A DNA stretch of 22,571 nt from the IMG/VR virus record IMGVR_UViG_3300032163_000111, positions 1 through 22,571 of that record; one strand, written 5' to 3'. Positions 1 to 16,993 of this stretch are shown here, in pieces. Position 1 is the first letter of the stretch, and each line of letters starts with the position of its first letter. This DNA is from a virus. Below the pieces are notes generated by a model that worked only from the letters and a program-made list of their open reading frames with translations, ran no database searches and was not told the DNA's origin. Both the position numbers and the translations under genes were made by a program.

Positions 1-155
1 TTGTCGGCGTCCAACGTGTAATCATCTTTTGATATTCGCGCTAGAAACATGGTCGTTAGGGGATGTCGTTAGATTTGCCGTAATACCACAGATTTAACAT
101 TGTAGGCACTTTTAACAAATGTTTGATATAATGAATAGTTGCCAGACAAAAAAAC
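1..155. other. Left-edge segment after the hub gene, possible start of next baseplate gene
   Basis: No complete gene fits here. On the minus strand an ATG at 50-48 opens a frame (MFLARISKDDYTLDAD) that is still open at the window edge. It could be the first residues of the next tail gene, but I see no Shine-Dalgarno sequence in front of it. A second short frame starting at 100 closes after 14 codons. The minus strand has a T7 run (153-147) just after the hub stop codon, but no GC-rich stem precedes it, so I do not call a terminator. Confidence 0.3.
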
Positions 156-1851: not shown

Positions 1852-2450
1852 TGTATCCTCTCGGCTAACGTGCTACCGACATTGCCGACGACTCCGATCG
1901 CACTGGTAACGGCACCTGCGCGGGCAAGTATAACACGCTGAACGGATTCGAGTTCATAGGCACTTCCCTCCTCAACAACCATGAACTTCAACCTTGAAAA
2001 CAGTCGTTGTGGCGTCAACGTCAGGGAACTGTAGAGCGTTTCACGAATAGGCGCTTCGGCCAATACTGTCTTGGCCCACCTGAGCCCAAAAATGAAATAA
2101 CAAAGCGGTGGCGCTACAAACTTTCGCTTGTCGAACATAGGCATTTGGTCGAGTGGAGATTCGGGAAGCATGAAACTTTCGAGCGTGGCGATAACGTCCC
2201 GGACACCATACGGTTTGGCAAATTGAAAATTCACCGTGGACGCAGACCCATCGGTGGCATCGGCAACAATGTCAAATTCAATCGTCTTGACGCCGTTGTT
2301 ACTGTACTCGATGATTGGCCTGTCCCATCCCGGGGGAGTCCTCAGTTCGTAATTGACAGGTTTCTGAATGTTCATTTCGTGCGGGTTGAACTGAAATTTG
2401 AACATCAAGCCTGCCTTTGGATTCGCTATGATACCTTTGACTGAATTCAT
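1848..2450 (-). CDS. Baseplate / tube-end protein with 'FQFNP' N-terminus
   Basis: A 200-aa protein. The beginning (LMFKFQFNPHEMNIQKPVNY) matches the 'F.FNP.e..i.k' start found in proteins lying between the tape measure and the hub of contractile tails and contractile injection systems (XkdP-like, Pvc7-like). It is followed by beta-rich sequence with a conserved-looking VKTIEFDIVADATDG. The C-terminus is hydrophobic and small-residue rich (ARAGAVTSAIGVVGNVGSTL). The ATG overlaps the tape measure stop (ATGA). No LysM is present in this protein; the neighbouring 102-aa gene carries it. Likely role: baseplate hub adaptor. The assignment rests on the N-terminal motif and position. Confidence 0.62.
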   Translation of the reverse strand: MNSVKGIIANPKAGLMFKFQFNPHEMNIQKPVNYELRTPPGWDRPIIEYSNNGVKTIEFDIVADATDGSASTVNFQFAKPYGVRDVIATLESFMLPESPLDQMPMFDKRKFVAPPLCYFIFGLRWAKTVLAEAPIRETLYSSLTLTPQRLFSRLKFMVVEEGSAYELESVQRVILARAGAVTSAIGVVGNVGSTLAERIQ

Positions 2451-4957
2451 CGTTTTTGATATTCCTTATGGCATTTCACCAGTTCCGGATAGAGTTTTGC
2501 GGCAATCTGTTTTGCATCGGAATCACCAGCTACATGCACATGAATACCACCAGTGACAGTCATTGAGCCGAGTGCATCGGCTTTAATGGTGGCCGGGGGA
2601 GGAACGTATCGTTTCACGTCAAATAACTCGGGTGCGGTTACAAACTTTGTGCGCCTTTCCAGCCCAACAGTTGCAGATGTTAACTTTTCCGTCCCCTGCC
2701 TCGTAGGCGTGGCCATAAATGAATGAGGTGAAATCAACTTTGTTGGTCCTTCTTGTTCAACGGCTGCGGGTGCGGTTACCAACTTTGTCCACCCTTCCAA
2801 CCCAACGGTTGCAGGTGTTGACTTTTCCGTCCCCTGCATAGGAGGCGTCGGCATAAATGAATGAGGTGAAATCAACTTTGTTGGTACTTCTTGTCCAACG
2901 GCCGCGGGTGCGGTATCGTCACCAGGGTGCGGGTGTCGCTTTGCCCAACGCGAAGAAATCTCGTCTATCTTGACGAAGCCAGCAAGATTCCAATCAAGTC
3001 CGACGAAGTTTGCGACCTTGTCGATGACACTGAGAAACTTCCAGATACCAACCAAAATGCTATCGACAAAATCATCCATGTTCCCCATTAACGTTCCGAT
3101 AAGAAGCGGAAGACCAACCAACGGATTGACGAATGAAAGGATAGCAAAGGCAAACAACGTGGCCCATTTCATCCAGACGGGTACGTCCTTGAACAAGGTC
3201 TTGAAGGCATAGTACGTTGCCATGACAAGGGCGATCGGCCAAACCATAGGTGAAAGTGCAAAATCAACTGCGGCTAAGGCGTGAGCCAATAACCATGTCC
3301 CCGCAGTCAGGACCGTCATGGCAGCAGCAGTAACACCAATCAGGTAACCAGCCGTATTCATTCCGTCGTTGCCATTTGGAATCAGGGTATCGATCAGCCA
3401 TGCGAACGGTGTCAATAGCATGTTGACCATTCGGTAGGCAAGTCCGAACGTGTCAATGAATCCACTACCGAATCCTTCCAAGAAACTTGCTACCCGGATT
3501 CGCATAACCTCCAAAAAGACTATGAATGGAATGAGGTGCGCCTTCATCATGGCTTGTGATTCCTGAACGCTATCGGCAAGCAGTCCACTCCACCGACCAG
3601 CTGCCTGTATCCATCCACCAAGTTTCTCCCCAATCTTGTCGACCGTGTGCATCAACCACCCAAACATCGTGTCGAGCACACCTTTGTTCTGCTGAATCTT
3701 CGTTGTAATGGACGTCAACCAGTCATTGGTTTTGTCATACGACTTCATCAACGGCCCTTGCAGAGAATCACCTATCCCAATGCGGAATTCGGTGAGGATG
3801 TTTTGAAATCTCTTCATCTTTCCATCGAGTGTCGCCATCTGGACGTCAGACATGCGTTGACCAGTTCCCTTGGCGAGTTCTTCGGTGAACTGTTCCTGCA
3901 GTTTTGCAATCTTCTTGGTATCGGCGGACAGCCTAATGATTAGACCGGCAGAATAGCCACCGACAATGCGGGTAAGGTCGCCGTACGGGATGACACGTAA
4001 TCTCTGCATAACCTTTATGAGTCCTTGACTCTTGATGTCAACGTCGGCAAGTGTCAAGCCGTATTTCCCCAGCACGGCTTCGTGCATCTTGGTTCCTTCG
4101 GCCAACATTTGGAACATCATGCGAAGCCTGGTGCCACCCTCACCACCCTTGTAATACAAATCAGCGGTCCCCATCAAGGCCAACAACTGATTGAACGGGA
4201 CTCCCATGGTTGTGGCTTCCGTTCCTACAACCTTTAGCATTTCGGACAATCGTCGCGCGTTAAGACTTGTGATGTTGGTGGCGAGCGCCATCTGGTCGAA
4301 CAGAATCGTAGCATCCGAAACGGGCCGGTTCAGTCGAGCCAGCAACGACAACATATCCTGTCCGGATTCCTGAACGCCAAACTGTGTCGCAGTCGCGTAG
4401 TTCAAAACGGCCTTGGTCAAGCCACTTAATTGTTCGGCGGGAATTGGCATCGTGGTCGAGAGGTCATACGAAGCATCCGCAATCTCTTTCGCCGAAAACC
4501 TGCCGGTAACGGCCATTGACCGCATTTGCATTTCCAGCATCTTCATCTGGTTGTTGTCGAAACCAGTAGCGGCCTGCATGTTCGCCAACGAATAGTAGAA
4601 TTCTCGCGTCGAACCGATAACGTCGGTGAGTCCTCGCTTCACGGCGTAGATTCCACCGAGCAATGAAACGTATGGGAACAGTCGAATGACGCCAGCGCGG
4701 AAACTAAAGAGGTGCGGTTCTGCACTTTGAAGGTGTCGCGAAAACGAACTGATACCAGCCCCCGCCCTGTTTGAATTGGTGGTGGTGGTGCCAAGCCCTC
4801 GGTTGAGGTGGTCAACGCTGGTCGTCGCCTTTGTGGTTTCGCCAGGCATCCGATCAACCAACTTCATCAACTTGTCGATCGACGACGAAATCTTGTTGGC
4901 GTTGACCGTAGCGTTGTCAGCTATGTTGATCGCCAAGCCTAAATTCAGTCCGTTCAC
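2447..4957 (-). CDS. Tail tape measure protein
   Basis: An 836-aa protein that sets tail length and is threaded through the tube. Residues about 100-400 resemble the TP901-type tape measure core (TREFYYSLANMQAATGFDNN, then RFSAKEIADASYDLSTT, then ATTMGVPFNQLLALMGTADL). Residues roughly 530-640 contain several hydrophobic segments (GYLIGVTAAAMTVLTAG; ALVMATYYAFKTLF; WATLFAFAILSFVNPLVGLP), common in this family. The C-terminal part holds a 46-residue tandem duplication. The start is a GTG with GGAGA seven bases upstream, just after the stop of the chaperone frameshift product. Position immediately after the tail chaperone and before the baseplate genes confirms the call. Confidence 0.92.
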   Translation of the reverse strand: MNGLNLGLAINIADNATVNANKISSSIDKLMKLVDRMPGETTKATTSVDHLNRGLGTTTTNSNRAGAGISSFSRHLQSAEPHLFSFRAGVIRLFPYVSLLGGIYAVKRGLTDVIGSTREFYYSLANMQAATGFDNNQMKMLEMQMRSMAVTGRFSAKEIADASYDLSTTMPIPAEQLSGLTKAVLNYATATQFGVQESGQDMLSLLARLNRPVSDATILFDQMALATNITSLNARRLSEMLKVVGTEATTMGVPFNQLLALMGTADLYYKGGEGGTRLRMMFQMLAEGTKMHEAVLGKYGLTLADVDIKSQGLIKVMQRLRVIPYGDLTRIVGGYSAGLIIRLSADTKKIAKLQEQFTEELAKGTGQRMSDVQMATLDGKMKRFQNILTEFRIGIGDSLQGPLMKSYDKTNDWLTSITTKIQQNKGVLDTMFGWLMHTVDKIGEKLGGWIQAAGRWSGLLADSVQESQAMMKAHLIPFIVFLEVMRIRVASFLEGFGSGFIDTFGLAYRMVNMLLTPFAWLIDTLIPNGNDGMNTAGYLIGVTAAAMTVLTAGTWLLAHALAAVDFALSPMVWPIALVMATYYAFKTLFKDVPVWMKWATLFAFAILSFVNPLVGLPLLIGTLMGNMDDFVDSILVGIWKFLSVIDKVANFVGLDWNLAGFVKIDEISSRWAKRHPHPGDDTAPAAVGQEVPTKLISPHSFMPTPPMQGTEKSTPATVGLEGWTKLVTAPAAVEQEGPTKLISPHSFMATPTRQGTEKLTSATVGLERRTKFVTAPELFDVKRYVPPPATIKADALGSMTVTGGIHVHVAGDSDAKQIAAKLYPELVKCHKEYQKR
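2631..2906 (-). repeat. 138-bp tandem duplication inside the tape measure gene
   Basis: Two adjacent 138-bp units (2631-2768 and 2769-2906) encode two 46-residue copies beginning TAPAAV and containing TKLISPHSFM, QGTEK and ATVGLE. A third partial start (TAPE) follows. The copies differ at several codons, so the duplication is not brand new. The reading frame is kept. Confidence 0.93.
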
Positions 4958-4968
4958 AATTCTCTCCG

Positions 4969-5196
4969 TTACGCTCCGCCAAGACGGTTAATGAGTGTCA
5001 GTAGGGCTTTCCGATACTCATATTCGCCTTCGAGGTCCACCTTTGCTCTTTCAAACATCCGGATTCGTTCATCTCGAGTTAGCGACAGGATATCACTTCT
5101 TGCGTATCCTGTCATCCGGGAAATGATATACATCTGTTCCTCGACGCCGTATTCATAGTCATCGTTGAAGAACAGAGCCGCTAACTCACTAAAGGG
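4969..5196 (-). CDS. Tail assembly chaperone, -1 frameshift extension (GT-type)
   Basis: A 75-codon open frame in the -1 frame relative to the chaperone gene, running from the slippery site to a TAA at 4969-4971. Its translation has a clear protein character: acidic start (ELAALFFNDDYEYGVEEQ), then YARSDILSLTRDERIRMFER and a helical end. It has no good start codon at its head; the first ATG is at its 22nd residue with a GAGGA upstream, so limited independent initiation is possible. Its place between tube and tape measure is the classical site of the frameshifted G/GT chaperones of tailed phages. The expected fusion is 282 residues from the upstream frame plus these 75. Confidence 0.78.
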   Translation of the reverse strand, partial: PFSELAALFFNDDYEYGVEEQMYIISRMTGYARSDILSLTRDERIRMFERAKVDLEGEYEYRKALLTLINRLGGA

Positions 5197-6041
5197 AAAA
5201 AAGACTGGTAGTTCACTCCGGCATTGTAATCATGCTGACAGTTTTCACACGTCACCTGCATGGCCAAGTTGACCTGTGGCAATCGATTGAGTGTGTCGCG
5301 TACAATCATCCGGTCGTTGGCAAACAAACCACCGCGGTCCGCAAAGAACATGAAACCTGCCTTGTACGCTTCGAACATATCATTCGGCATCACAAAACCT
5401 GTTTTGGAAGACCGCACATGTTTCAATCGGTCATTCACAATCCTGACTTGGAAGTCAAGTACTCGTGATGCGAGAAAATACTTCTCATTGTTCAGTGCAT
5501 CACCGACCGTGGGGATGCCAAAAACGAACTCGTCAAATACCTCTTTTTCCCATCCGAGTTCCTTCTGACCTGCTTTCGAGGTGTCAACAATTCGTTTCCA
5601 GCCAGTCTGCAGATGTGTGGCGATTTCATCCATTGGCGTAGCGGTGAAATCGACATCCGGCATCGTCATGTTCGAAAGATCAACATCGACGATATTGACG
5701 TGTCGGCATCCGCATTGCGTATGTTGCCCGATCAGCATCGGTCCGTAGGTTTCAATCTGCCCCATGACTAAAATGAGACCAGCATCGACTAGGGGAATGT
5801 GTCGAACGATATCGGGAATCTTCTTACCGTCTGATTCAAAGAAATCGCTAGACACAGACTTGCCTTCGATGTCGTGAAGCAAGCATGACAGAAGCGACGC
5901 CATCCATTTCTGTGGCTTTTCAGCTTTGAGTTGTTCGTTGTGAATGATGCGCTCCATGAAGCCATCGATCTTGTTCACTTCAAACTTTCGGCATTGTGTT
6001 TCATGGTAAGTGAAGCCTATTGGCAAAATCTTTTGCAGCAT
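5181..6041 (-). CDS. Tail assembly chaperone / baseplate-hub assembly protein with Cys pairs
   Basis: A 286-aa protein between tail tube and tape measure, the place of tail assembly chaperones that coat the tape measure before the tube polymerises. It carries two Cys pairs, C-G-C at residues 110-112 and C-E-N-C at 265-268, that could form a zinc site. This recalls the T4 gp26/gp51 hub-assembly type of protein more than the lambda G type. I chose the ATG at 6041, which has AGGAG six bases upstream; the open frame extends further 5' but would overlap the tube gene, and that part looks non-coding. The last residues (FFPLVS) follow a -1 slippery site, so a minority product should continue in the other frame. 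Confidence 0.72.
   Translation of the reverse strand: MLQKILPIGFTYHETQCRKFEVNKIDGFMERIIHNEQLKAEKPQKWMASLLSCLLHDIEGKSVSSDFFESDGKKIPDIVRHIPLVDAGLILVMGQIETYGPMLIGQHTQCGCRHVNIVDVDLSNMTMPDVDFTATPMDEIATHLQTGWKRIVDTSKAGQKELGWEKEVFDEFVFGIPTVGDALNNEKYFLASRVLDFQVRIVNDRLKHVRSSKTGFVMPNDMFEAYKAGFMFFADRGGLFANDRMIVRDTLNRLPQVNLAMQVTCENCQHDYNAGVNYQSFFPLVS
5196..5202 (-). promoter_or_regulatory. Programmed -1 frameshift slippery heptamer TTTTTTC
   Basis: In the chaperone frame the codons read TCT TTT TTC CCT, so the heptamer T TTT TTC fits the X XXY YYZ rule for simultaneous -1 slippage. It lies five codons before the zero-frame stop (5181-5183). Moving to -1 here opens the 75-codon extension. Confidence 0.8.
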
Positions 6042-6094
6042 ACTGAACTCCTGTGGTTTGATGGTTACGGTGTCCCCATTACCCCTGACGAAAG

Positions 6095-6130
6095 ACAAGG
6101 CTGGTGCATCAGGCGATACACCAGCCTTGT
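6095..6130 (-). terminator. Strong hairpin right after the tail tube gene
   Basis: A perfect 12-bp inverted repeat (ACAAGGCTGGTG / CACCAGCCTTGT) with a 12-base loop starts a few bases after the tube stop codon. Downstream on the minus strand is CTTTCGTC, not a real U-run, so it may be a partial terminator or an RNA-stabilising 3' hairpin that lets the abundant tube mRNA outlast the downstream message. Confidence 0.65.
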
Positions 6131-6132
6131 TA

Positions 6133-6618
6133 CTACTGAGCAGAGTTCGCTGACAACGTCGACTTGGTGGCGACGGTGTTGTACGCATCCTCCCAGTGAT
6201 CAACCTGTGCGACATAGGTCTGGTCGGACTTTGCACTGTCACCTTTGCCAGCAGTGTCGAAATCAGACACCTTGTAATCGTTCATCAGCAAGCCGGTGAA
6301 CAATACCTTCATGGCGACTTTACCATGACGATACTGGGTAAATGTTCCATTCACCTTTTTGCCACTCAGCCGAACATTTCGGACGAAGTTGGCAAATGTC
6401 GTGTCATCACCACTGCCATCGCGGGTCCGGACAATCGTGATGGGGCCATTCTCTTCAATCCCATCGCTGAAACTGTAGGTCTGGTTCGAACCACCATCAA
6501 CGATTGTCATGACGCCAGTCTTCGTGGACAATCCCTGCAACTTATGGAATTGGGGACTGGTCAGTCCCGGCAACTCCATAATCCATCCATTGTTGGGCAT
6601 CAAATCGTTAGGTTGCAT
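6133..6618 (-). CDS. Tail tube protein (T4 gp19-like)
   Basis: A 161-aa protein that should form the inner tail tube. Length, position immediately after the sheath gene, and the pattern of beta segments (IMELPGLTSPQFHKLQGLST near residues 13-32, GPITIVRTRDG, then MKVLFTGLLMNDYKVSDFD) fit the gp19/phage tail tube family. The ATG has AAGGAG about nine bases upstream. A 19-bp palindromic hairpin sits just 5' of that ribosome site and a strong hairpin just 3' of the stop. This unit is therefore bracketed by RNA structures, in keeping with a protein needed in high copy number. Confidence 0.88.
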   Translation of the reverse strand: MQPNDLMPNNGWIMELPGLTSPQFHKLQGLSTKTGVMTIVDGGSNQTYSFSDGIEENGPITIVRTRDGSGDDTTFANFVRNVRLSGKKVNGTFTQYRHGKVAMKVLFTGLLMNDYKVSDFDTAGKGDSAKSDQTYVAQVDHWEDAYNTVATKSTLSANSAQ

Positions 6619-6633
6619 AGCTATTACTCCTTC

Positions 6634-6652
6634 CGTGTCTCTCGGAGAGACA
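6634..6652 (-). repeat. Hairpin element, copy 1, 5' of tail tube RBS
   Basis: Minus-strand TGTCTCTCCGAGAGACACG forms a short stem of 7 or more base pairs with a CCG loop. It lies in the 39-base gap between sheath and tube, just upstream of the tube Shine-Dalgarno. The identical 19 bp recurs at 22502-22520. Confidence 0.85.
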
Positions 6653-6657
6653 TTGGT

Positions 6658-8142
6658 TTATTTTTCAGTTACTTTGAGATCGTCGCGTGTCTGGAAGATG
6701 TTGATGGTTCCAGATTCAATTGCTTCAACAGGATGGAAGGAGAAGTCGGCGACGATTCCACCATTGTCTGCGATCTCCTGCGTGTTGTTCTCTTCGTCGC
6801 ACTTCACTTTGGCGTTGTTCTCGTATCCACCGCGCGTGTTGAGTCCACCATTCTTGTATACGTCCTGCGCGAAAAACGTCAACGAATCAGAGAGTTTGTC
6901 GTACGTTTTCTTCACAGGCGGTTCTTGTTCAAGCCACATGAAGCTGCCTTGGAAACTGGCGATCATCCAGTTGGTCATTCTGCGAACGTGCGCGGAGTAA
7001 TGCTTTCGCAACGTTGAGAATGTCCGTGATGTCCGCACGATGAATCCCTTACCCTGCACCCATTGAACCGGGTTGAATCCAGCGGCAACTGAATTGTTAA
7101 CGTCTGTGGCAGAGTAGAACGGGAACTCCAATTCGTAGACATCACGAAGTGCAGTCGTGTCGCCAGCAGGGGCAATCCATGGGAAGCCACCACGCTGTAC
7201 GCATTTGCGAATCCATGCAGCACCGACAGCATGAGCCATCATCGGGATGGCAATTACACCACCGTTTTCGTCGTCAACATTTCCCCACCCACGCGTTCCA
7301 ACGAGGTAACTCTTGCTCTTAAGTAATGGAGCATACGTTGATGCGAGGGTCGTGATCGACGCGGCCTGGGGGGATGCAATGAGCCCGATTGCAACGCCAA
7401 GACCCTCAACATATGTCTGCAACGACTGAGCCGATGCAATGGCGTGAAGGTCAGCGTTCATAATCAACGGGATGTTGATACCGTTGAACCTGCTGTACGC
7501 GGCAATATAGTCGGAATCTGTTGGTGCAATCCCATCAAGTCCTCCGAGGAGTGCTGTTTGAGCAGCAACAACCGGAACGGTTGTGGCACCGGTAGCCAAT
7601 GCACAGATTACCCAACCAGACTTCTTGAGGAATTCATTGACAACGCTGGTGTTGTCGAGGTATTCGTGAACCTCCTTCATGACGGGTGCGAAATCCTTGG
7701 GGCCTTTGTATGACACGATGACGTCGCGTTTATTGGCATCGGCAACGTTCACCTTGATTTCGATGTACACATTACACCCATCGGCACCGGGACTCGGGTG
7801 ACCATACCAGCCAGACGTGAACACCCACGACCCCTTCGTCGCATCGTTGAACGTTTTGGTTGCGCTGACAGAGCCAGATGCACCAATGACACGACCTCCC
7901 CAAACGGTTGCACCGAATTCGCGGCAGTTGGCATACAATCCACGGCGCATGAACCCACCGAGGTATGAAGAACCATACTCACCGAAGACTTTCTTGTCGT
8001 CGGTGGGATTGTAAATAGGAACAGCGACATCGACAGGGCCACGTCGAGATGTAAACGCCATTCCCATGCTGAAAATGTCACTCGGAACAACCCGAGCCGC
8101 ATCAGCTGAATCTCTTTCGATAATGTTCATGCCTACGTTCAT
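6658..8142 (-). CDS. Contractile tail sheath protein
   Basis: A 494-aa protein forming the contractile sheath. The N-terminus (DIFSMGMAFTSRRGPVDVAV, then KKVFGEYGSSYLGGFMRRGL and GATVWGGRVIG) is the standard sheath pattern: a segment about passing over to a neighbouring subunit, then 'F.e.fG....yl......F..nGg..vyv.Rv'. The C-terminal region (TLRKHYSAHVRRMTNWMIAS, later FHPVEAIESGTI) matches the conserved C-terminal sheath domain. ATG at 8142 has GAGGAG six bases upstream. It is followed directly by the tube gene, the invariant order in contractile tails. The length lies between P2/Mu-type and T4-type sheaths. Confidence 0.93.
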   Translation of the reverse strand: MNVGMNIIERDSADAARVVPSDIFSMGMAFTSRRGPVDVAVPIYNPTDDKKVFGEYGSSYLGGFMRRGLYANCREFGATVWGGRVIGASGSVSATKTFNDATKGSWVFTSGWYGHPSPGADGCNVYIEIKVNVADANKRDVIVSYKGPKDFAPVMKEVHEYLDNTSVVNEFLKKSGWVICALATGATTVPVVAAQTALLGGLDGIAPTDSDYIAAYSRFNGINIPLIMNADLHAIASAQSLQTYVEGLGVAIGLIASPQAASITTLASTYAPLLKSKSYLVGTRGWGNVDDENGGVIAIPMMAHAVGAAWIRKCVQRGGFPWIAPAGDTTALRDVYELEFPFYSATDVNNSVAAGFNPVQWVQGKGFIVRTSRTFSTLRKHYSAHVRRMTNWMIASFQGSFMWLEQEPPVKKTYDKLSDSLTFFAQDVYKNGGLNTRGGYENNAKVKCDEENNTQEIADNGGIVADFSFHPVEAIESGTINIFQTRDDLKVTEK

Positions 8143-8155
8143 GATTTTCTCCTCG

Positions 8156-8377
8156 TTAAATGATCAGTTTCAGAATACTTGCTCGTACCAAATCTTGGAA
8201 ATGAGGACTGGCCAATATCGCTTCGGGCAATTCCTTTTGTTCATGGGGTGCGAACACAACTTCATCGCAGAATCCCGACACCGGCACGGTTTGATCTCGG
8301 TCATTCTTCACGACAACGGTTTTCATGCTAGGCGCATCCGATTCCGTTGAATTTCTTTTTTCCTTGCTCTCTTTCAT
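8156..8377 (-). CDS. Small hypothetical protein between tail terminator and sheath
   Basis: A 73-aa protein with a charged N-terminus rich in Lys, Glu and Ser, then a compact core (TVVVKNDRDQTVPVSGFCDE, then VVFAPHEQKELPEAILAS) that looks like a small beta fold. The ATG has TAGGAG upstream at good spacing. Small proteins are often found at this site in contractile-tail operons, but I recognise no family and assign no function. Confidence 0.7.
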   Translation of the reverse strand: MKESKEKRNSTESDAPSMKTVVVKNDRDQTVPVSGFCDEVVFAPHEQKELPEAILASPHFQDLVRASILKLII

Positions 8378-8387
8378 GATTCTGCTC

Positions 8388-8927
8388 CTACATTGTTTGA
8401 ACGCTAATAGTAGCCTGTTTAATGGCAGTTTTCACAACTGGATCTACAAGGTGTATCGGAATAACCAGTCGATAGGTAAAAATCCACTGGAATACACCAC
8501 CCTCAAGCTGCGGCATGTCAATCGTGTCGGTGATTTCGACGTCAAAGGTGTCACCATCAATCGTAATGTATCGTTGTGCATCTCTTTGCTGACAGATCTT
8601 CGATGCGATGAGGAAGAGTTCGTTCGCATGGTCAAATCGGTCAGCTTCGAAGGTCACTTGATATGTAAAGATCAGTTGTTCGGGTGCCTGGTCAATCGTC
8701 ACGGATTTATTCTCGGCATCATACTCTTGCGTTGGTTCAACCCATACCTTCGAGCCGGGCTTTGGTACAAATGCTTGAAACACGATGCCCGGATAGTTTG
8801 GCTTTCCCTTGAGTTTGGGCTGGTCATTGAAAAACACGACCGGAATAACGACAGTAGAACCGGTCAATTTCTTGTTAACGCATGCATCGTAAAAGGCATT
8901 ATGTACTGTCATCAAGTCGCGTATCAT
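8388..8927 (-). CDS. Probable tail terminator / head-tail joining protein
   Basis: A 179-aa protein overlapping the upstream gene by ATGA. It has an N-terminal helix (MIRDLMTVHNAFYDACVNKK), then alternating hydrophobic strands (IPVVFFNDQP; YPGIVFQAF; LIFTYQVTFEADRFDHANEL) and a C-terminal strand pair (FQWIFTYRLVIPIHL). The arrangement helix, beta sheet and helix in the middle (ANELFLIASKICQQRDAQRY) resembles tail terminator proteins. In contractile phages the tail terminator usually lies just before the sheath gene, as here. The assignment is mostly by position. Confidence 0.55.
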   Translation of the reverse strand: MIRDLMTVHNAFYDACVNKKLTGSTVVIPVVFFNDQPKLKGKPNYPGIVFQAFVPKPGSKVWVEPTQEYDAENKSVTIDQAPEQLIFTYQVTFEADRFDHANELFLIASKICQQRDAQRYITIDGDTFDVEITDTIDMPQLEGGVFQWIFTYRLVIPIHLVDPVVKTAIKQATISVQTM

Positions 8928-9421
8928 CGTCCAAATACCTCAATTCGTGTTTCGTCACTTACTTTTTGCAGCACTCCCCCCAAGTGCTGCCTCAATCCTT
9001 CGAGGGTCAATCTGTAGACTGGTCGCGCCTGCATACTTCCCCTGCGTGTTCCATACTCATGTATCAAGGCCAGAAACGCTACATCGAGCCCGGAACGTCG
9101 GTGTTTTTTACCGCCCTTTATGCCAACGAATCTTTCTCCCGGCCCTATATTATAGAGCTGAATTGCTCCCATCATTTCGCCACTGGCTATCAGGATTCGG
9201 GCGTCTAATCCCTTCTTTTCCTTCCATTGCCGATACCATTCGTTAAGCGGTCTGAGGGGTAAATCCTGATTCTTGAAGTGACCTACCAGCTCCTCGTAGT
9301 ATCGGTTGGCTATTGCGTCGGCCACGTTCTCACGCAACTTCTTGGCAAATACCGGTAACAACGTGAACGTTCGCTTTACGTCCTTCCATTCACCCAATAG
9401 TTTTACTTCGATAGTGCTCAT
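8924..9421 (-). CDS. HK97 gp10 / Mu gpG-like virion morphogenesis (head-tail completion) protein
   Basis: A 165-aa protein. The C-terminal motif LIHEYGTRRGSMQARPVYRL matches the 'iHefGt....m..Rpf......' signature of HK97 gp10-like and phage virion morphogenesis proteins, which complete the head-tail junction. The N-terminal part is helical and basic with aromatic residues (NEWYRQWKEKKG). The ATG overlaps the upstream stop (ATGA). Neighbours on both sides are connector-type genes, which fits. Confidence 0.75.
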   Translation of the reverse strand: MSTIEVKLLGEWKDVKRTFTLLPVFAKKLRENVADAIANRYYEELVGHFKNQDLPLRPLNEWYRQWKEKKGLDARILIASGEMMGAIQLYNIGPGERFVGIKGGKKHRRSGLDVAFLALIHEYGTRRGSMQARPVYRLTLEGLRQHLGGVLQKVSDETRIEVFGR

Positions 9422-9834
9422 GACATCAACGGTTTCCTGCGCTTACATGACACGATCGTGGCGATTGACGTATCGAACAGGTCGGGCCTCGCATCAATCG
9501 ACAGTATTTCGTATTCGTTATCGCCAAACATGAACCATCCCTTTTCGCGTTCAAGCACCAACACCTTGTCCTCTAATTCTTTTGTCGACAGTGTTACGAT
9601 GAGTTCAGCGTCGCGGGTCACGCCGAATGCTTGCTTCTGCTTATCACTGGGCGATTCACTGACGGCAGCATAGAGTGTAGTCTCGATGTATTCTTGGGTC
9701 GTAATAATTCCCCATCGGGAATCACTGACAGTCTTCGATGCATCGAGACATCGATACGCGATGGTGTTCGAGAAGTCATTGACGAAGAAGTCATACAGTT
9801 CATTCTTTGCATCATCTATTTCCTCTTTCGTCAT
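9418..9834 (-). CDS. Putative head closure / connector protein
   Basis: A 138-aa protein coupled by ATGA overlaps on both sides. The N-terminus is helical (EEIDDAKNELYDFFVNDFSN) and the rest is mostly beta strands (DAELIVTLSTKELEDKVLVL; GWFMFGDNEYEILSIDARPD; IATIVSCKRR). The segment 'W.m.g...YeI.sIda' is like head-completion/stopper proteins (SPP1 gp16-like), which read 'd.v.i.g..Y.I..v......'. No catalytic motif. The function is inferred from fold pattern and position. Confidence 0.55.
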   Translation of the reverse strand: MTKEEIDDAKNELYDFFVNDFSNTIAYRCLDASKTVSDSRWGIITTQEYIETTLYAAVSESPSDKQKQAFGVTRDAELIVTLSTKELEDKVLVLEREKGWFMFGDNEYEILSIDARPDLFDTSIATIVSCKRRKPLMS

Positions 9835-10517: not shown

Positions 10518-12169
10518 GGTTTCACCGGTCCAATAAGATTTTCAAACAATCGGCAAATCTTCATCAAGGGTTCGTCTTTTTTCGCCAGTTCATACATTTC
10601 GGAATTGCGATTCAGGAACCACGTCACGCTTTCGGCGAATTGTTCCATCGGGCTTTCTAGTGAATTCTTCGTCAAAAAACCAAATTCGGTTTTCCGTACC
10701 CAGTTTGCAGCATCGAAGACGTTGCCAGGTTCTTGTTTTGTCCAGCAGACTCGAGCGAAGGACTCGTAAAGACTGTGGAACTGGTAGTGGAGAGAGTGGC
10801 CAACTTCATGTCCGAGTGTGTAACGAAACAACTCATCGTTCATGTGCTGTGGATCGTTAAATTGAATCAGCTTGCCATCTAAGGAATACTGAGCGTATGA
10901 GGTTACGGCAGCTCCCGACGCAAGGATTTGGGTCAACTTCATGTTCTTGAGCATGACTTCATAAGGCATTGCATCCAAGATGTCGGCAATCGCGTTCATC
11001 TGTTCGATTTCAAACTCTTGGTCAACCGTGATACCATACGTGTCGGCAACATATTCAGCCGAATCCATTACACTTGTAAAATCTCCAATTCGAGTAGCAT
11101 TGACGTAAGGCTCGGGGTCAGGATTGTTTTCAGTCTCTCGTATAAACTGACCAACTCCACGTTCGTCCCGCACTCCTTCGATTCGCGCGCTTCCACTTTC
11201 GTATGTCAACGAACAACCACATTTCACAACATTCGATGCACTTGCATTGGGGTCATGCGGCCGTTCCATTTCTTCCCCACCGATGTCAAACTTTTCTTCA
11301 AACTTGAGAGACTGTCCAGCAACCGCAGCGTGAGTCTTCCGCATACTCTTCCTGATTATCTGAATCCATGTCTTGATGATCTCGACGCCATACCGTTGGC
11401 GATACTCGTCAGCGAATTCATACTCGCCGTAGTTTGCAGCGCCAGCCAATTCTGTTACCGCGATCATTTCGGCGTTTGAATCTTCTCCCAGAACTCTCCT
11501 GACACGCGAGGTCATTTGCTTTACTGATTCCCCTGTTTCATATCCTCTGGCAAGTGTCGCCTGCAGACGTTCTCTCATGTTGGTGGTGATGTTCTGCGAT
11601 GTTATCTTGAAATCCTTGCCGAATAAATACTCCCGGGCCTTTCGATTGAACTCCTCAAACTTTAAGTCAAAGTTGACGCCAATCCCGATACTGAAAGCAT
11701 CTCGTCCTTTTCGGATCTCCCGTTCAACCTTGTCAGGTATGGCGTCCATGTGTTGCCGCGCGAGGTCGAACACTTTCGCGTTACTGTTTGCCGATTTGCT
11801 TGCCCTTCGGAAATCCCTCGTCCTCTCATTGGTGTCGTGCCTCAGCATGTCGTAGGTCTGCTGTGTCGCGTTCCGCACCGTGTTTTGTTTTGAACTCGCC
11901 AATAGCGCCATCATTAAGAAAGAAAAAGGCAAGCCCTTCTGTATTCCGGTCTTCGCCCCGCCAAGCATCTCTACAGAAACCGGTTCTATTTCTGGACTTG
12001 CCTTTATGTTGAGATTATCAAGTTCGTCTACTCTGGACGCCAACAGATGGTAACCCTTCTCTTCGTCGTCCTCATCTACTCCCTCTACAATCTCCTCTGC
12101 AACATCGGCATACACACCTGACAGGGTCTCAACAAGATCCGCAACGTCTTGAGTGAAGTCATACGCCAT
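10514..12169 (-). CDS. MuF-type minor head protein fused to a HEXXH zinc metallopeptidase domain
   Basis: A 551-aa two-part protein. Residues about 190-335 form a MuF/SPP1 gp7-like head morphogenesis domain: REDLQ-like helix (RERLQATLARGYETGES), AEMIAVTELAGAANYGEYEF, then KTWIQIIRKSMRKTHAAVAG and a closing 'C.C' (VKCGCSLTYE). The C-terminal domain carries HEVGH at 454-458 and a downstream SPMEQFAESVTWFL (Glu about 513) in the usual gluzincin spacing for a third zinc ligand. MuF proteins enter the capsid in few copies. MuF proteins with variable C-terminal toxin or enzyme domains are an established class in temperate phages. This one could be ejected with the DNA, or process virion proteins. 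ATG overlaps the upstream stop (TAATG). No obvious immunity gene follows. Confidence 0.85.
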   Translation of the reverse strand: MAYDFTQDVADLVETLSGVYADVAEEIVEGVDEDDEEKGYHLLASRVDELDNLNIKASPEIEPVSVEMLGGAKTGIQKGLPFSFLMMALLASSKQNTVRNATQQTYDMLRHDTNERTRDFRRASKSANSNAKVFDLARQHMDAIPDKVEREIRKGRDAFSIGIGVNFDLKFEEFNRKAREYLFGKDFKITSQNITTNMRERLQATLARGYETGESVKQMTSRVRRVLGEDSNAEMIAVTELAGAANYGEYEFADEYRQRYGVEIIKTWIQIIRKSMRKTHAAVAGQSLKFEEKFDIGGEEMERPHDPNASASNVVKCGCSLTYESGSARIEGVRDERGVGQFIRETENNPDPEPYVNATRIGDFTSVMDSAEYVADTYGITVDQEFEIEQMNAIADILDAMPYEVMLKNMKLTQILASGAAVTSYAQYSLDGKLIQFNDPQHMNDELFRYTLGHEVGHSLHYQFHSLYESFARVCWTKQEPGNVFDAANWVRKTEFGFLTKNSLESPMEQFAESVTWFLNRNSEMYELAKKDEPLMKICRLFENLIGPVKP

Positions 12170-12564
12170 TATTCATCCTTGTGAGCTGCAGCTATGTGAG
12201 CTACCAGATTGCGTTTGGCAGGAAACGGTTTTCCACATTTTTTGCACTTGAATTCCTCGGTGCTTTGCAGTAAAGAAGTCTGACCATCCGCACTGGGTGC
12301 CAACGTTGCATTTTCAGACGATTGGTTCTCAGATGCCGGCGTTGTACCAAGATCGACCGTTACTTCTTGGTCAGTGATCACCACGTCTTTCTTGTCGAGT
12401 GACGCAACGGCCTTATTGATGTCGTCACATACCCAACCTTCTTTCTCGTTGTGAAGCTGAATCGCCAGCGTTGCGGAAACAAGCATAATACCTTGTGGTC
12501 TCACAAGTGTCCCGTAGAAATTTATCGCGACGTCTTTCGTCCAGCGAACTTCGAATTTGTCCAT
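12169..12564 (-). CDS. Small protein ending in a C2H2 zinc finger
   Basis: A 131-aa protein just downstream of the capsid gene. I start it at ATG 12564 (MDKFEVRWTKDVAINFYG), because the longer frame would run through a hairpin that looks like a terminator stem. The N-terminal half is a small beta-rich domain; residues about 75-105 are a low-complexity Ser/Ala/Thr/Gln linker. The end (FKCKKCGKPFPAKRNLVAHI then AAAH) is a textbook C-x2-C-x12-H-x4-H finger with the hydrophobic F and L positions. Such fingers are uncommon in phage. The position between capsid and MuF genes suggests a head-associated or small decoration-type protein, but this is only inference. Confidence 0.75.
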   Translation of the reverse strand: MDKFEVRWTKDVAINFYGTLVRPQGIMLVSATLAIQLHNEKEGWVCDDINKAVASLDKKDVVITDQEVTVDLGTTPASENQSSENATLAPSADGQTSLLQSTEEFKCKKCGKPFPAKRNLVAHIAAAHKDE

Positions 12565-12589
12565 TTCACACTCTTGGTTTTGTTTGGTA

Positions 12590-12621
12590 AAATTGTGGGA
12601 GAGCCTTTCGACCCTCCCACA
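12590..12621 (-). terminator. Hairpin after the capsid gene
   Basis: Inverted repeat TGTGGGAG / CTCCCACA (12614-12621 and 12594-12601) lies 18 bases after the capsid stop codon. On the minus strand it is followed by AATTTTACC, a short U-rich stretch. It could be a leaky terminator lowering expression of downstream genes, or a 3' stabilising hairpin. Confidence 0.6.
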
Positions 12622-12638
12622 TTGATTACATGCCAATG

Positions 12639-15329
12639 TTACGGCAGAACCGTGACCAACGACATCTTGTCGCCAATCGGGCTCTCGAGTGCGTCTTCCT
12701 GGTAGATGTAGTACTCATCACCACCAAGCAATGCCCCATCGGCTCCACGAACAGGGTACGGACCTTTGAGTGACATCGGTTCGTAGATGCGGAAGATCGT
12801 GGCATCTTTTTGCGACAACAGGATGTACTGATCATCGAACACATCCGAGCCGAATGTCGGCAGGTTCGCGGTGCGGCCGTAGTTACCTTCACCAACAACG
12901 GACGACGCGGAGAAGCCAGAACGTGCCTGCGAACTTGCGTACGCATCGGCCTGCGTCATGTAGTTGGCTGTCACTTCGGACGCCAATACGAATTCGGGCT
13001 TGTAACCACGGGTCTCACGGTGGTATGCAGCCTGATTCGAAATCGAAAAGAGCAGTTTGTTCATCCACTCGCCCCACTTATAGCCTGTGGCAGCCGTCAA
13101 CGAGAATCGCACCTCGTTAGTGGCTTTCTTTCCGCTTACGACGATTGCCTTTGTGTCGGCGATATTCTGCGGAGCACCGTCAGCATCAACAAACAGAATC
13201 TTTCCTTCCGGTCCACTGAGTACATAGAACGTTGTTCCGGTGACACTGACTTCATACTCGTTTATTGAGACACCATCAACCGTTACGGTGATGGGTTCGC
13301 CACTCGAGATTGACGCGCCAGAGCAAACCGTGAATTGCGACGTTGCACCGTTTCCAACGCCGTTGTACGTGAACGCAACCGACCCAAACGCAAGTGCGGT
13401 ATTCCGCATGTCAGCCATCACCATCTGCTGCAGGGACCGGCGCATGTCCCCAATCAAGTTTGCAATACCGCGACTGATACCGGTGATGTTTGGTGTTCGT
13501 TTCGACAGCGTGGCGAATTCATCGGAGAATGACGCCTGCAATTTGCTTGCAGTCGCATCGATGTCGAACCACTCTGTCGTGAGCTTGCCTTTCGGAATCG
13601 CTTTCAATTCGCCAACCTTGATTTCAGACTGACGAGCCTTGGACGGCTTGTAGGTCTTCTTCGTCCCAGCGTTGCCGGCTTCTCGACGATACCGTGTAAT
13701 CGGTACTTGGTCTCGTTTGTTCTCCATCGGACCGAAATCAACCAACTGATTGATAATCTGGTCCGAATAGACTTCCTCCAACACGATGCGCGAAATCGTG
13801 TAGGGAACATCGAAGTCCGCAGGTGTCGTGGTGGCGTCCAACATGGCCACAATCTTGGCACCTTCGGCTACGAGATTAGCCTCATGAAGAGAGTCATAAA
13901 TCTTGAGGAATTTCTGGACTGACGGTTGCCGATTCTTCCCGGAAACGATGTCCTCTTTCTTTGCCGCAACGATACCGGTTTCCAGTACCATGTCGGTCAG
14001 GGCCTCAACCCCTTTCAGATGTTCCGCCGTTACTTTGATTTCCATGCTGCCTGTTCCTTTCCCTCTGATACCTTCCGTGTTCATTTTTTCTTGAGCGACA
14101 CCAAGGTTGAACAGTTTCGTTGCATCCTCAATGGCAGCGTCGATACCGGCTTCGTTCGCAAACGTTCGGGCTTTGAGTGAATCCAGTATGCTCTTTCGGA
14201 CGTCTTCGCCTTGTGTAAGAACACCCACCTTGTCAAGCAAATACTTGCCGAGTTTTTCGGTCAACGCCCTCGCATCGCGAATTTTCTGCTCCCCGTCAAT
14301 GAACGCTTTCAACCGTGCGGTCGAATCATCGATTGCACTGACATCGACTACAGGTGTCGGTGACGCTTGAGCAGTTTCCGTTTGCGCAGGCTGCTCTGGA
14401 AGGGTCGGTGGCACGATTGTGTCGACGATCGCTTTCAAGTCGGTTGCCAACTTTGTGAGGTGTGCGTTCTTCTTTTCGGCATCAAGCGTGGTGTCGGCCT
14501 GCATCTTCTCAACGCCGGTCTTCAGCGCCGTGAACGAATCCAAGATGTCGGCAGGCAACGCGGTGCTGTTCGCCTTCACTTGTGCCTGAATGACATCGAC
14601 CAGGGTGGTAACGCTTTTGATCAGCTCCCCATTTTGGGCGGCCAATTTTTCGAGTTCTTTTGGGTCCATGAGTACTTCCTCCTGTGAATGTTTGATGTCC
14701 GTAATTCTTGTTCTATTTACCAACTTGTCCAACTCCACGGCGTCGACCAATTTCAGCCGTGTGCGTTCACCAGCGGCAGCCGAATCGAGAAAGCAGAAAT
14801 CGTAGCCGAGCAATTTCACGATTTTGTCGACCACGATGTAGTATTGACCGTCTGCATCTTCTCGCACACTCTGAATTCCGATTGCACGTTGCGACACCCC
14901 TAGTTCAACCCCCTCATCAAACAGTTGCTTGACCTTGATACCCTTCTCGGTTTCAAGCACCCTGATGTTGACAACGGTTTCACCGGTCTCGGTCAATTTC
15001 AGGATATCGGGGATACCGGCGAGTTCTTCCGGATTTCCACGAATGTCACCCTCGGGATGGCCGATATATGCAGTCAACTGCCACTTCTGAGAGGACCAAT
15101 CAGCTACCGCGTCTCTTTGCACGACAAACGGAATAACACGGTTGTTACTGTTGATGACGTTGGCGATCGAGCCAACCGTTTCGAATCGATACTTTTTGTC
15201 GGTCAGTTTTTCGACCTTGATGGGCACGACATCCGTGATGAATTCAACGGGTTTATCCAGCACCATGTCGAGCATGTGAGCCGGAATCTTGTCGATGCGG
15301 TTCATCTTTTCAACGTTTTGTTTTCCCAT
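12639..15329 (-). CDS. Fused prohead protease-scaffold-major capsid protein with internal starts
   Basis: An 896-aa protein. Residues 1-200: protease of the T4 gp21 type, with a His at 91 (IGHPEG) and Ser at 146 (LGVSQRAIG), 55 residues apart, then GYDFCFLDSAAAGE. Residues 221-428: charged, helical, Ala/Glu/Lys/Thr-rich scaffold. Residues 429-896: major capsid protein (KKEDIVSGKNRQPSVQ, QVPITRYRREAGNAG, then an inserted beta domain near 620-690). ATG at 15329 has AAGGAG seven bases upstream. Two further in-frame ATGs with good Shine-Dalgarno sequences occur exactly at the domain borders (14669 and 14045), so the same gene probably makes protease-scaffold-capsid, scaffold-capsid and capsid alone. 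An alternative is pure post-translational cleavage by the protease. Confidence 0.88.
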   Translation of the reverse strand: MGKQNVEKMNRIDKIPAHMLDMVLDKPVEFITDVVPIKVEKLTDKKYRFETVGSIANVINSNNRVIPFVVQRDAVADWSSQKWQLTAYIGHPEGDIRGNPEELAGIPDILKLTETGETVVNIRVLETEKGIKVKQLFDEGVELGVSQRAIGIQSVREDADGQYYIVVDKIVKLLGYDFCFLDSAAAGERTRLKLVDAVELDKLVNRTRITDIKHSQEEVLMDPKELEKLAAQNGELIKSVTTLVDVIQAQVKANSTALPADILDSFTALKTGVEKMQADTTLDAEKKNAHLTKLATDLKAIVDTIVPPTLPEQPAQTETAQASPTPVVDVSAIDDSTARLKAFIDGEQKIRDARALTEKLGKYLLDKVGVLTQGEDVRKSILDSLKARTFANEAGIDAAIEDATKLFNLGVAQEKMNTEGIRGKGTGSMEIKVTAEHLKGVEALTDMVLETGIVAAKKEDIVSGKNRQPSVQKFLKIYDSLHEANLVAEGAKIVAMLDATTTPADFDVPYTISRIVLEEVYSDQIINQLVDFGPMENKRDQVPITRYRREAGNAGTKKTYKPSKARQSEIKVGELKAIPKGKLTTEWFDIDATASKLQASFSDEFATLSKRTPNITGISRGIANLIGDMRRSLQQMVMADMRNTALAFGSVAFTYNGVGNGATSQFTVCSGASISSGEPITVTVDGVSINEYEVSVTGTTFYVLSGPEGKILFVDADGAPQNIADTKAIVVSGKKATNEVRFSLTAATGYKWGEWMNKLLFSISNQAAYHRETRGYKPEFVLASEVTANYMTQADAYASSQARSGFSASSVVGEGNYGRTANLPTFGSDVFDDQYILLSQKDATIFRIYEPMSLKGPYPVRGADGALLGGDEYYIYQEDALESPIGDKMSLVTVLP
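14043..14060 (-). promoter_or_regulatory. Internal RBS and ATG for capsid-only product
   Basis: AAAGGA (14060-14055) lies nine bases before an in-frame ATG (codon 429). The predicted product of 468 aa begins MEIKVTAEHLKGVEALTD, the likely start of the capsid domain. The size is normal for a major capsid protein. Confidence 0.6.
14667..14683 (-). promoter_or_regulatory. Internal RBS and ATG for scaffold-capsid product
   Basis: A perfect AGGAGG (14683-14678) stands eight bases before an in-frame ATG (codon 221 of the fusion). The predicted product of 676 aa begins MDPKELEKLAAQNG, the head of the helical scaffold segment. A full Shine-Dalgarno at exactly this domain border is unlikely to be chance. 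Confidence 0.75.
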
Positions 15330-15489
15330 TCTTCATCTCCTTTTGAAGTCGCTTCTTGCTCTCCGTGATAGGTTCAAGGACGACCTTCCCCTTGACGCCG
15401 TTGTGATTGAGTTCAACAATCCGTTCCTTCGAGGAAACGTGATCGCCACCGTTCTCAGGTCCGTGCCATCCGCTGTTTTCGTTTCCCAT
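15310..15489 (-). CDS. Small hydrophilic protein upstream of capsid fusion
   Basis: A 59-aa protein (starts MGNENSGWHGPENGGDHVSS, ends KNGKTKR). Its last 20 bases overlap the start of the capsid fusion gene, whose Shine-Dalgarno lies inside it. AAGG stands five bases before its ATG. It is highly charged, Gly/Asn-rich at the front and Lys-rich at the end, with a short strand (GVKGKVVLEPI) in the middle. No family recognised. It is the first gene of the morphogenesis operon in this window. Confidence 0.65.
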   Translation of the reverse strand: MGNENSGWHGPENGGDHVSSKERIVELNHNGVKGKVVLEPITESKKRLQKEMKNGKTKR

Positions 15490-15597
15490 AGGTGCCTTGA
15501 GTTGAATGATTGAACGTCTGTTTTTTGCTTCGTATATCGTCTTGGTTAAATCTTGTGCCTGTCGAACGAGTGACGAGATGGATTAGGACCAGACAAC

Positions 15598-15651
15598 AAA
15601 AAAGGCCAAATGTCCCGGACAACATGACGTTCTCCGAAGACCATTTGGCCT
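15598..15651 (-). terminator. Intrinsic terminator in the leader of the morphogenesis operon
   Basis: Minus strand: AGGCCAAATG pairs with CATTTGGCCT around a 29-base loop and is followed by a T6 run (15603-15598). The loop itself can form two small hairpins, one with a CTTCGG tetraloop and one from TGTCCGGGACA, so the whole may fold as a branched structure. It stands about 75 bases into the transcript of the promoter at 15730-15758 and would also end messages coming from the Cro-like gene. The structural genes begin 109 bases beyond it, so they must be reached by read-through, antitermination or an unseen promoter. Confidence 0.82.
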
Positions 15652-15672
15652 GTAAGTGGTGAATCTACTCTT

Positions 15673-15728
15673 AAACTCTACTGCGTTCCAATCCACGCGC
15701 CAACGTGCGCGCGACAAAACTCTACTGC
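15673..15728 (-). repeat. 12-bp direct repeat pair overlapping the transcription start
   Basis: GCAGTAGAGTTT occurs on the minus strand at 15728-15717 and 15684-15673, 44 bp apart (about four helical turns). The first copy spans the predicted start point. Between them lies CGCGC...GCGCG, a short GC stem. A shorter relative (TTGCAGAGTTT) lies upstream of the promoter at 15808-15798. They could be operator sites on one face of the helix, or leader RNA elements. Confidence 0.7.
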
Positions 15729-15729
15729 A

Positions 15730-15758
15730 AATATAACCATTTCATTTTGCGATGTCAA
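15730..15758 (-). promoter_or_regulatory. Strong sigma-70 promoter facing the structural genes
   Basis: Minus strand TTGACA (15758-15753), a 17-base spacer and TATATT (15735-15730): six of six and five of six consensus bases. Transcription should start near 15723. The surrounding sequence upstream is very AT-rich (UP-element-like run of A/T at 15760-15800). It reads toward the terminator and the capsid operon. Confidence 0.85.
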
Positions 15759-15790: not shown

Positions 15791-16138
15791 TTATTTTAAA
15801 CTCTGCAAGAAAACTTCGATGTCGCTCTCAAGATACAGGCCGATGGGTATATGGTGATTACATGCGACCAACAGGTGTGGGACCGTGAACGGACGATGCG
15901 TAACGGGAACGACAGCCTTGTCCTTCGGACTGGAGCCAACTTCCTCAACAAAGGGTTTCTCCAACACAGCCTTCACAAGTCTCAAATCGGTTTGGGACAG
16001 TTCTTCATTGCAGATATTTGGGCTATTGCCAGATCAATTTGCCGCGGGTCCAGGAAATTCAGTTCTGACAACAGCCTTGAAATCCTTTTCGACTTGTGGA
16101 GCGACAAAACGTCTTCCTTGAGGGGCTGACTCGCTCAT
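15791..16138 (-). pseudogene. Small early gene interrupted by an in-frame TGA
   Basis: The ATG at 16138 overlaps the stop of the Cro-like gene (ATGA). The frame reads 34 codons (MSESAPQGRRFVAPQVEKDF to PGPAAN), meets TGA at 16034-16036, then stays open for 80 more codons with a clear protein character (NEELSQTDLRLVKAVLEKPF, later VVPVTHRPFTVPHLLVACNH). No good start codon follows the TGA except TTG at 15985. A single nonsense change in a 115-residue gene is the simplest reading; stop read-through is possible. Function unknown; position resembles a CII- or anti-repressor-type slot, but no such motif is seen. Confidence 0.7.
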
Positions 16139-16371
16139 CGACAATTTGCACCATTTATCCCCCCTTTCACCGTTTCGCCATAAATCGCATGATCCGCCGA
16201 AATCCCCAACACGAGACATATCCTGCCCAGACTGTCAGATGCAAGGACAGATAAATCCCGCTCTGCCAGTGAAATGGCGCCCGGGCTGACTGCTGATTGC
16301 TTTGATAACTCGGCGATTGTGAATTTCTTAAGCGATCTTGCATTTCGTAGTCTAGTTCCGATCGTTGACAT
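16135..16371 (-). CDS. Cro-like XRE-family HTH regulator
   Basis: A 78-aa DNA-binding protein. IGTRLRNARSLKKFTIAELS, KQSAVSPGAISLAERDL and a final LGRICLVLGISADHAIYG give a complete single XRE/Cro helix-turn-helix domain with the usual 'G..lk..R...g.t..eLa...gvs...is..E' pattern. It diverges from the plus-strand repressor gene, the usual cI/cro arrangement. ATG at 16371 has AAAGGTG eight bases upstream. It is followed by a coupled, interrupted gene. Confidence 0.85.
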   Translation of the reverse strand: MSTIGTRLRNARSLKKFTIAELSKQSAVSPGAISLAERDLSVLASDSLGRICLVLGISADHAIYGETVKGGINGANCR

Positions 16372-16477
16372 CTTTTATTCACCTTTCTTTTCTAGTTGTT
16401 TTTGAGGTGTCGCTGTGATATATTTGTTGATAAATCAATCTAATAAATAATTATTAAGAATTCAAGGAAAGTAATAA
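16372..16477. promoter_or_regulatory. Divergent control region of the lysogeny switch
   Basis: A 106-bp AT-rich spacer between the two HTH genes. It holds a palindrome TTGATAAATCAA (16427-16438), a likely operator half-site pair, and AATAATTATT (16446-16455). A tentative plus promoter is TTGTTG (16424-16429) with ATAATT 17 bases on, overlapping the palindrome, so the repressor could control its own gene. The minus promoter is less clear. Confidence 0.6.
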
Positions 16478-16993
16478 TTGCATATTAAAGGCGAAACCTC
16501 GACCGTCAGAGATCGGCTGCGACTGTTTGGTAAAGAGAAGTTCACAACCATGACGAATTTTGCGGCTGCATTAAAGATGAAGCCACAGGCTCTGAATGTC
16601 TACCTTGTCGGCCAAAGTCTACCCGGAAACACCATGCAGGCAAAACTCCGAAAGATGGGTTGTGATATTAATTGGCTGATTACCGGCGAAAGAATCTTAA
16701 AAGAGAGCGAAGATAAGCGTAGTAGGAATCCGTTCGAAGTCGACCTGAGGGAAGTTTTGCGGTATCTTAATTCTTCTGGAAGAGGGCTTGATTCGGGAAA
16801 GCTGGCCCGAAAGCTTTCAATGACAAAGCAGGAAGTTGACGGCTATTTACAAGGCGAGATGCTTATCCCGTTACCTCTATTGATAAGGATATGCGAGGTG
16901 ACGAACGACCTGAGTTTGCTAAACCATGTTTTTCAAGGGCGTAAAATAGTGGTCGGATGGGCGAGAGCTGGGAGGAAGAGGGCCAAGGGATAA
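16478..16993 (+). CDS. Phage repressor-like protein with two HTH-like regions
   Basis: The only clear plus-strand gene, 171 aa, starting at TTG with AAGGA about nine bases upstream. Residues 8-70 match phage repressor N-domains: VRDRLRLFGKEKFTTMTNFA, KMKPQALNVYLVGQSLPG and finally INWLITGERI, the familiar 'g.n..WLltGe' ending. A second helical region (LDSGKLARKLSMTKQEVDGY, then IRICEVTNDLSLLNHVF) at 100-150 also looks like an HTH fold rather than a LexA/S24 peptidase domain. There is no S24 catalytic Ser/Lys part, so RecA-linked self-cleavage is not expected. Basic C-terminus (RAGRKRAKG). Confidence 0.78.
   Translation: MHIKGETSTVRDRLRLFGKEKFTTMTNFAAALKMKPQALNVYLVGQSLPGNTMQAKLRKMGCDINWLITGERILKESEDKRSRNPFEVDLREVLRYLNSSGRGLDSGKLARKLSMTKQEVDGYLQGEMLIPLPLLIRICEVTNDLSLLNHVFQGRKIVVGWARAGRKRAKG

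Follow-up and report, generated by a model that had tools for sequence, protein, structure and literature searches.

A promoter, structured leader and terminator shared by three phage lineages ahead of their head genes: a probable late control region resembling lambda pR'-tR'

The question raised by this locus is why a phage should place a near-consensus promoter ahead of its head genes and then a strong terminator only ~126 nt into the transcript. The leader lies on the minus strand of the window (the whole stretch of DNA analysed here, 22,571 bases that make up one entire IMG/VR virus record), where it separates the head operon from a short gene remnant, and nearly all of the main genes run in the same direction. 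A first-pass annotation had described a promoter, a repeat pair with a GC stem between its copies and a terminator ending in T6, and had proposed an RNA of about 125 nt serving either as an attenuated late leader or as a small stable RNA. All of the elements it named are present on the minus strand, and the length of the RNA predicted here, 126 nt, agrees with its estimate. The features, with both ends of the leader RNA predicted from the sequence, are as follows.

15791-15985, minus strand: C-terminal remnant of ORF110 (N-terminally truncated)
15758-15730, minus strand: sigma-70-type promoter TTGACA-17-TATATT (-35 at 15758-15753, -10 at 15735-15730)
15717-15728, minus strand: repeat copy 1, GCAGTAGAGTTT, exact, covering the predicted start site
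15723-15598, minus strand: predicted terminated leader RNA, ~126 nt
15685-15720, minus strand: GC-rich 5' hairpin (from folding) at the 5' end of the RNA, between the repeat copies
15673-15684, minus strand: repeat copy 2, GCAGTAGAGTTT, exact, 44 bp from copy 1, start to start
15661-15678, minus strand: small second hairpin GAGUUUA-AGAG-UAGAUUC (from folding)
15598-15651, minus strand: intrinsic terminator, a long interrupted hairpin (15651-15603) with an internal G-G mismatch, and T6 (15603-15598)
15490-15597, minus strand: non-coding spacer from terminator to ORF59, weakly conserved, 108 nt (111 nt in both relatives described below)
15310-15489, minus strand: ORF59, a small conserved protein of 59 aa (MGNENSGW...), the first gene past the terminator
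12639-15329, minus strand: 896-aa head protein (capsid gene)

The description of the promoter as near-consensus was borne out: it matches at 11 of 12 positions and is both the sole 11/12 site and the best match in the whole window, compared with a mean of 0.17 such sites in 100 dinucleotide shuffles. The leader RNA folds at -47.2 kcal/mol (z -4.22), and none of 200 shuffles was equally stable. The terminator, at -27.0 kcal/mol, ranks first in stability among the window's 31 candidates, the second being at -19.7; it had been called a branched hairpin with T6, of which the hairpin and the T6 stand, but the structure is better drawn as one long interrupted hairpin. Past the leader the order is ORF59, the 896-aa head protein, a MuF-like protein, tail sheath, a tube-like protein and tape measure. 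ORF59 of the window matched no family in Pfam, and the N-terminal part of the head protein has a weak match to prohead protease (Peptidase_S77 below the cut-off; phrog_207, head maturation protease). Two observations on this operon are that a 155-aa protein encoded at 12169-12636 (minus strand) ends in a C2H2 zinc finger that passes the Pfam cut-off, an odd-looking feature in a phage, and that the tape-measure gene contains, at 2629-2914, a direct repeat of ~148 bp, with copies 138 bp apart and ~89-90% identical, which came to light through the match to record L002.

Searches for relatives with the capsid protein as a single sequence gave no result and the syntenic records L004 and L006 were instead reached via the tail sheath, with L008 reached via a capsid alignment. 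Single-sequence searches of viral_contigs with the capsid and MuF-like proteins revealed no close relatives, neither the capsid protein by itself nor a capsid alignment found any in genome_contigs, and a search with ORF59 added no new record. The leader DNA compared with 50,697 phage records gave chance matches only, with E values of 0.8 or worse among the matches listed. A looser promoter-plus-terminator pattern run over all viral_contigs returned three records, all of them these already-known phages; its gap limits were taken from the relatives, and the longer spacing of the window would be missed by it. Rfam at the gathering score gave no matches in the window or in the 89,932 bases of window and relatives together.

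Among the records found, only L004, L006 and L008 extend as far as the leader region, and the arrangement is present in each of them. They stand for two further distinct lineages, L006/L004 and L008, in which it sits at the same place: ORF110 is followed by the promoter, TTGACA-17-TATNTT, and by one or two hairpins; next comes a long interrupted terminator ending in T6, and beyond it are a 59-aa ORF and the capsid gene. L004 and L006 have identical leaders. They were treated as a single lineage together with L009-L012, L020-L022 and L024, which repeat one or the other of these two phages and share that leader. L013, L018, L019 and L023 are repeats of L008 and were left out of the counts. The leader region is not shown by L002, L003, L005, L014 or L015, the first of which matches positions 1-9667 of the window only. 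The lineages are well separated, the capsid protein of the window being 59% identical to that of L006 (57% by tblastn) and 59% identical to that of L008 in the best segment.

The promoter is TTGACA-17-TATCTT (10/12) in L006 and TTGACA-17-TATATT (11/12) in L008, so that all three phages retain TTGACA and a spacer of 17 bp, the spacer itself having only 3 invariant columns of 17. A consensus of TAnnTTTG has been given for the -7 element of Bacteroidetes (PMC7366714). Read from the sequences, TATATTTG of the window promoter fits that consensus as well, L008 fits it with a shift (TATTTTTG) and L006 does not match. No sigma-70-type promoter of 9/12 or better occurs on the coding strand of the terminator-ORF59 interval in any of the three phages, and transcripts from upstream promoters must therefore cross the terminator to reach the head genes; the scan is blind to any phage-specific late promoter 3' of the terminator. 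L006 has one 9/12 site farther downstream, within ORF59. The spacer between terminator and ORF59 has 27 invariant columns, compared with 17.7 (sd 4.4) in 150 shuffles, three of which were as high.

Conservation of the terminator extends to its structure, L006 and L008 likewise having a long interrupted hairpin with T6. A structure model (R1) trained on the terminators of L006 and L008, with the window left out, detected the window terminator at 28.4 bits (E 7.8e-5; 12 sources, 170,722 bases). When run on the window alone with filters off it ranked the terminator first (E 1e-5), and the runner-up, at 6094-6131 (E 0.0099), was matched on both strands and was taken as chance. A sequence-only model (R2) run over the same bases did not list the window terminator at E values up to 10; it listed the training sites and their copies alone, on both strands. 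Because the hairpin is close to a palindrome, R1 picks up the opposite strand of its training sites too. It gave no match in the 48,503 bases of lambda, and the matches it lists do not include the other strong terminators of these phages. Further strong terminator-like hairpins occur inside the structural operons (G001:C1 24641 and G002:C1 16464, minus strand), one directly after the capsid gene and the other directly after the tail tube gene, in different phages.

Covariation among relatives had been suggested as a check in the first-pass annotation. R1 finds the window terminator, but the 4 of 19 pairs altered on both sides between L006 and L008 were equalled by 38 of 500 shuffles in this two-sequence comparison. 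The flanks of the G-G mismatch are the same in all three hairpins, with two pairs outside it (A-U, G-C) and the first pair inside (A-U), forming a GAGA/UGUC motif conserved in all three leaders, and the pairs farther out vary (C-G, U-G, G-C, U-A). With so few sequences this pattern of conserved and changed pairs is suggestive only.

In front of the terminator the leaders have little sequence in common. Their folds have z scores of -4.22, -7.13 and -8.50, with none of 200 shuffles as stable in each case, and hairpins occur at the same place in L006 and L008, unrelated in sequence to the 5' hairpin of the window. There are two hairpins 6 nt apart in the window, two 1 nt apart in L006 and one in L008; the distance from the -10 to the terminator stem, read from the sequences, is ~80, 66 and 46 nt respectively; and the longest word common to all three before the terminator is 4 nt. 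A leader peptide was considered and rejected, since ATG is confined to the terminator hairpin or the sequence beyond in the window and L008 and is absent from the whole examined stretch of L006.

These observations, namely which elements are present and in what order, that three divergent phages have kept them, that the terminator structure is conserved and that no recognisable sigma-70-type promoter lies between terminator and ORF59, are the basis on which we consider promoter, leader and terminator to be probably the late control region of a tailed phage. It would seem, on balance, that the leader works as a late leader of the lambda pR'-tR' kind, in which termination holds back the head operon until antitermination lets polymerase through. 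Host RNA polymerase would initiate at the near-consensus promoter, make an RNA of ~100-126 nt with a strong 5' hairpin and halt at the long hairpin and T6, where most transcripts would be stopped; a phage factor would then let polymerase pass the terminator, and the head and tail genes would be expressed through regulated read-through.

The likeness to lambda (read from NC_001416) lies in the succession of promoter, 5' hairpin and terminator with the late genes behind, and it includes the hairpin of tR', which is also interrupted and when folded in the same way gives -26.9 kcal/mol, compared with -27.0, -29.0 and -28.2 here. The differences are that the lambda leader, known as the 6S RNA, is 193 nt long compared with 100-126 nt here, that the lysis genes come first in lambda and the head genes here, and that neither a match to a Q family nor a conserved Q-binding site was found in these records, which are fragments. 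In NC_001416 Q is annotated just upstream of the pR'-tR' leader. The corresponding place is taken here by ORF110, which is intact in L006 and L008 (112-115 codons) directly upstream of the promoter, yet in the window it is an N-terminally truncated remnant; this speaks against it as an essential antiterminator.

Three Q families, PF06530, PF03589 and PF06323, are named in PMC7171158. Neither PF06530 nor PF03589 was found in any of eight records (the window included, all records being fragments), and the first-pass statement that the window has no lambda-type Q gene holds for these two; PF06323 (Q82) was likewise absent from all eight fragment records, but here no control genome matched either. 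The NusG family PF02357 had no match in the same eight fragments, and no antiterminator emerged from PHROG scans of ten early proteins of the window and ten from the relatives. According to PMC6606751, Q needs a DNA site between the -35 and the -10 together with a -10-like pause element. No element of the first kind is clearly conserved here (3 of 17 spacer columns are invariant), and such elements may differ among phages. A -10-like TAnnnT near the start is present in two of the three, 6 nt past the -10 in the window and 9 nt past it in L008, and is absent from L006; neither kind of element is conserved well enough for a claim.

Other systems in which a leader terminator is passed differ in their details. 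In AlpA-PalpB-tB of Pseudomonas aeruginosa and with Q of phage 21, a promoter-bound factor lets polymerase pass a downstream terminator (PMC9371919 and PMC6606751). The elements for AlpA and phage 21 Q lie between the -35 and the -10, whereas the three phages here share almost nothing there. The put RNA of HK022 is, like these leaders, a structured nascent RNA able to influence termination (PMC9378689), and it is a V of two stem-loops; hairpin number and spacing vary in the three leaders here, which sets them apart from put. An antiterminator recognising the RNA of the terminator itself might dock at the GAGA/UGUC motif, the target then being neither promoter DNA (Q, AlpA) nor upstream RNA (N, put); we offer this as a speculative and on present evidence unlikely variant.

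The same motif could serve as a protein site if the element made a stable small RNA of ~100-126 nt, with a target in trans or a protein partner, and the head genes were expressed from another, phage-specific promoter. Such an RNA, which we regard as rather unlikely, would be in keeping with the strong promoter, the compact and well-structured transcript and the terminator of its own. A precedent is found in PMC4825925, in which IsrK of Gifsy-1 is a terminated leader that doubles as a small RNA; IsrK further resembles the present case in that one promoter, there in a prophage, gives both a terminated leader and a read-through mRNA, and differs in that it targets its own long form in trans and precedes an anti-repressor gene, no such target being seen here. 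The parts conserved between lineages are the promoter and the terminator, Rfam recognised nothing, and with no shared word of more than 4 nt before the terminator there is no conserved base-pairing seed. Of the two functions first proposed for this RNA, the late leader is favoured by the retention of promoter, 5' hairpin and terminator in both other lineages whose records cover this place and by the lack of a sigma-70-type promoter of 9/12 or better before ORF59, and the small RNA is weakened by the lack of any such word. A locus free of regulation, with a constitutive promoter and a terminator that is leaky or insulates early from late genes and with no dedicated antiterminator, is decidedly unlikely in our judgement. 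With nearly all surrounding genes in one direction a terminator at the early/late boundary is plausible, and the structural operons of L006 and L008 contain other strong terminators, from which partial termination may be usual in these phages; an insulator, though, needs no conserved promoter of its own ~100-150 bp upstream, and the pair is kept in all three lineages.

The repeats invite two further explanations. The two copies of GCAGTAGAGTTT, 44 bp apart with the first over the predicted start, are exact, as had been reported, and one exact 12-mer repeated within 100 bp compares with a shuffle mean of 0.13 and maximum of 3; the pair is real, though it stands out only mildly when the entire window is considered, and its place in the leader is suggestive. 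It had been proposed that they are operators; one of the HTH proteins might loop or block the promoter through them, and the overlap of copy 1 with the predicted start and the presence of a divergent repressor/Cro-like pair at 16135-16993 would fit. This proposal gained no support from comparison with the relatives, both copies being missing from L006 and L008, and no additional copy with up to two mismatches lies near the HTH genes, the only other such match in the window being at 3260; we consider it very improbable. Loci of the type III toxin-antitoxin kind have a promoter, short repeats, an attenuating terminator and a downstream small gene, an order that the present one resembles. They are characterised by tandem antitoxin repeats and a ToxN-type toxin. 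The repeat period of 44 bp might bring such a locus, or a CRISPR-like RNA, to mind, but only 12 of 44 bases repeat, the relatives lack the repeats, ORF59 of the window is without a Pfam match and CRISPR-DR9 scored at chance level (14.4 bits, cut-off 45), which leaves this explanation with hardly any credibility. The exact pair was found nowhere else across viral_contigs, and, as a guess, it may have arisen when a segment around the 5' GC hairpin was duplicated or inserted locally in this phage alone.

The late leader favoured here would belong to a conserved and compact type in a lineage that perhaps infects hosts of Bacteroidota-like or related affinity. Among phage records the tail sheath is closest to those of Maribacter and Bacteroides phages (24-29% identity). 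In L008 a fragment at 885-1301, near the end of the phage contig, has a Por_Secre_tail (secretion system C-terminal sorting) domain; it is a piece of host DNA bordering a prophage, or else a gene that was acquired. Taken together these two hint at a host in the Bacteroidota or a related phylum. In open-licence PMC papers no account was found of late antitermination in phages of Bacteroidota or Ignavibacteria, the process being detailed for lambdoid phages and a few others, and the available fragments of this lineage contain no member of a Q family. The locus provides a short stretch of DNA amenable to testing, together with a small set of early genes in which a new antiterminator can be sought.

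Upstream of the leader two divergent HTH genes, at 16135-16371 (minus strand) and 16478-16993 (plus strand), resemble a Cro/repressor switch and suggest a temperate phage; beyond them lie genes for a zinc-ribbon protein, RadC and an AAA ATPase. An AT-rich inverted repeat is found near the HTH pair at 16441-16487. The accessory genes just upstream of ORF110 differ in each relative, and L006 has, at 228-1719, genes for a HipB-like HTH protein and for HipA N-terminal and C-terminal parts where the window has the HTH pair. Predicted structures of ORF110 (mean pLDDT 41.8) and ORF59 (53.2) were too poor for use. In L008 a promoter-like TTGACA-17-TAGATT is found at 1436-1474, and since its -10 ends 8 nt ahead of the ATG of ORF110, that gene may be expressed from a leaderless mRNA.
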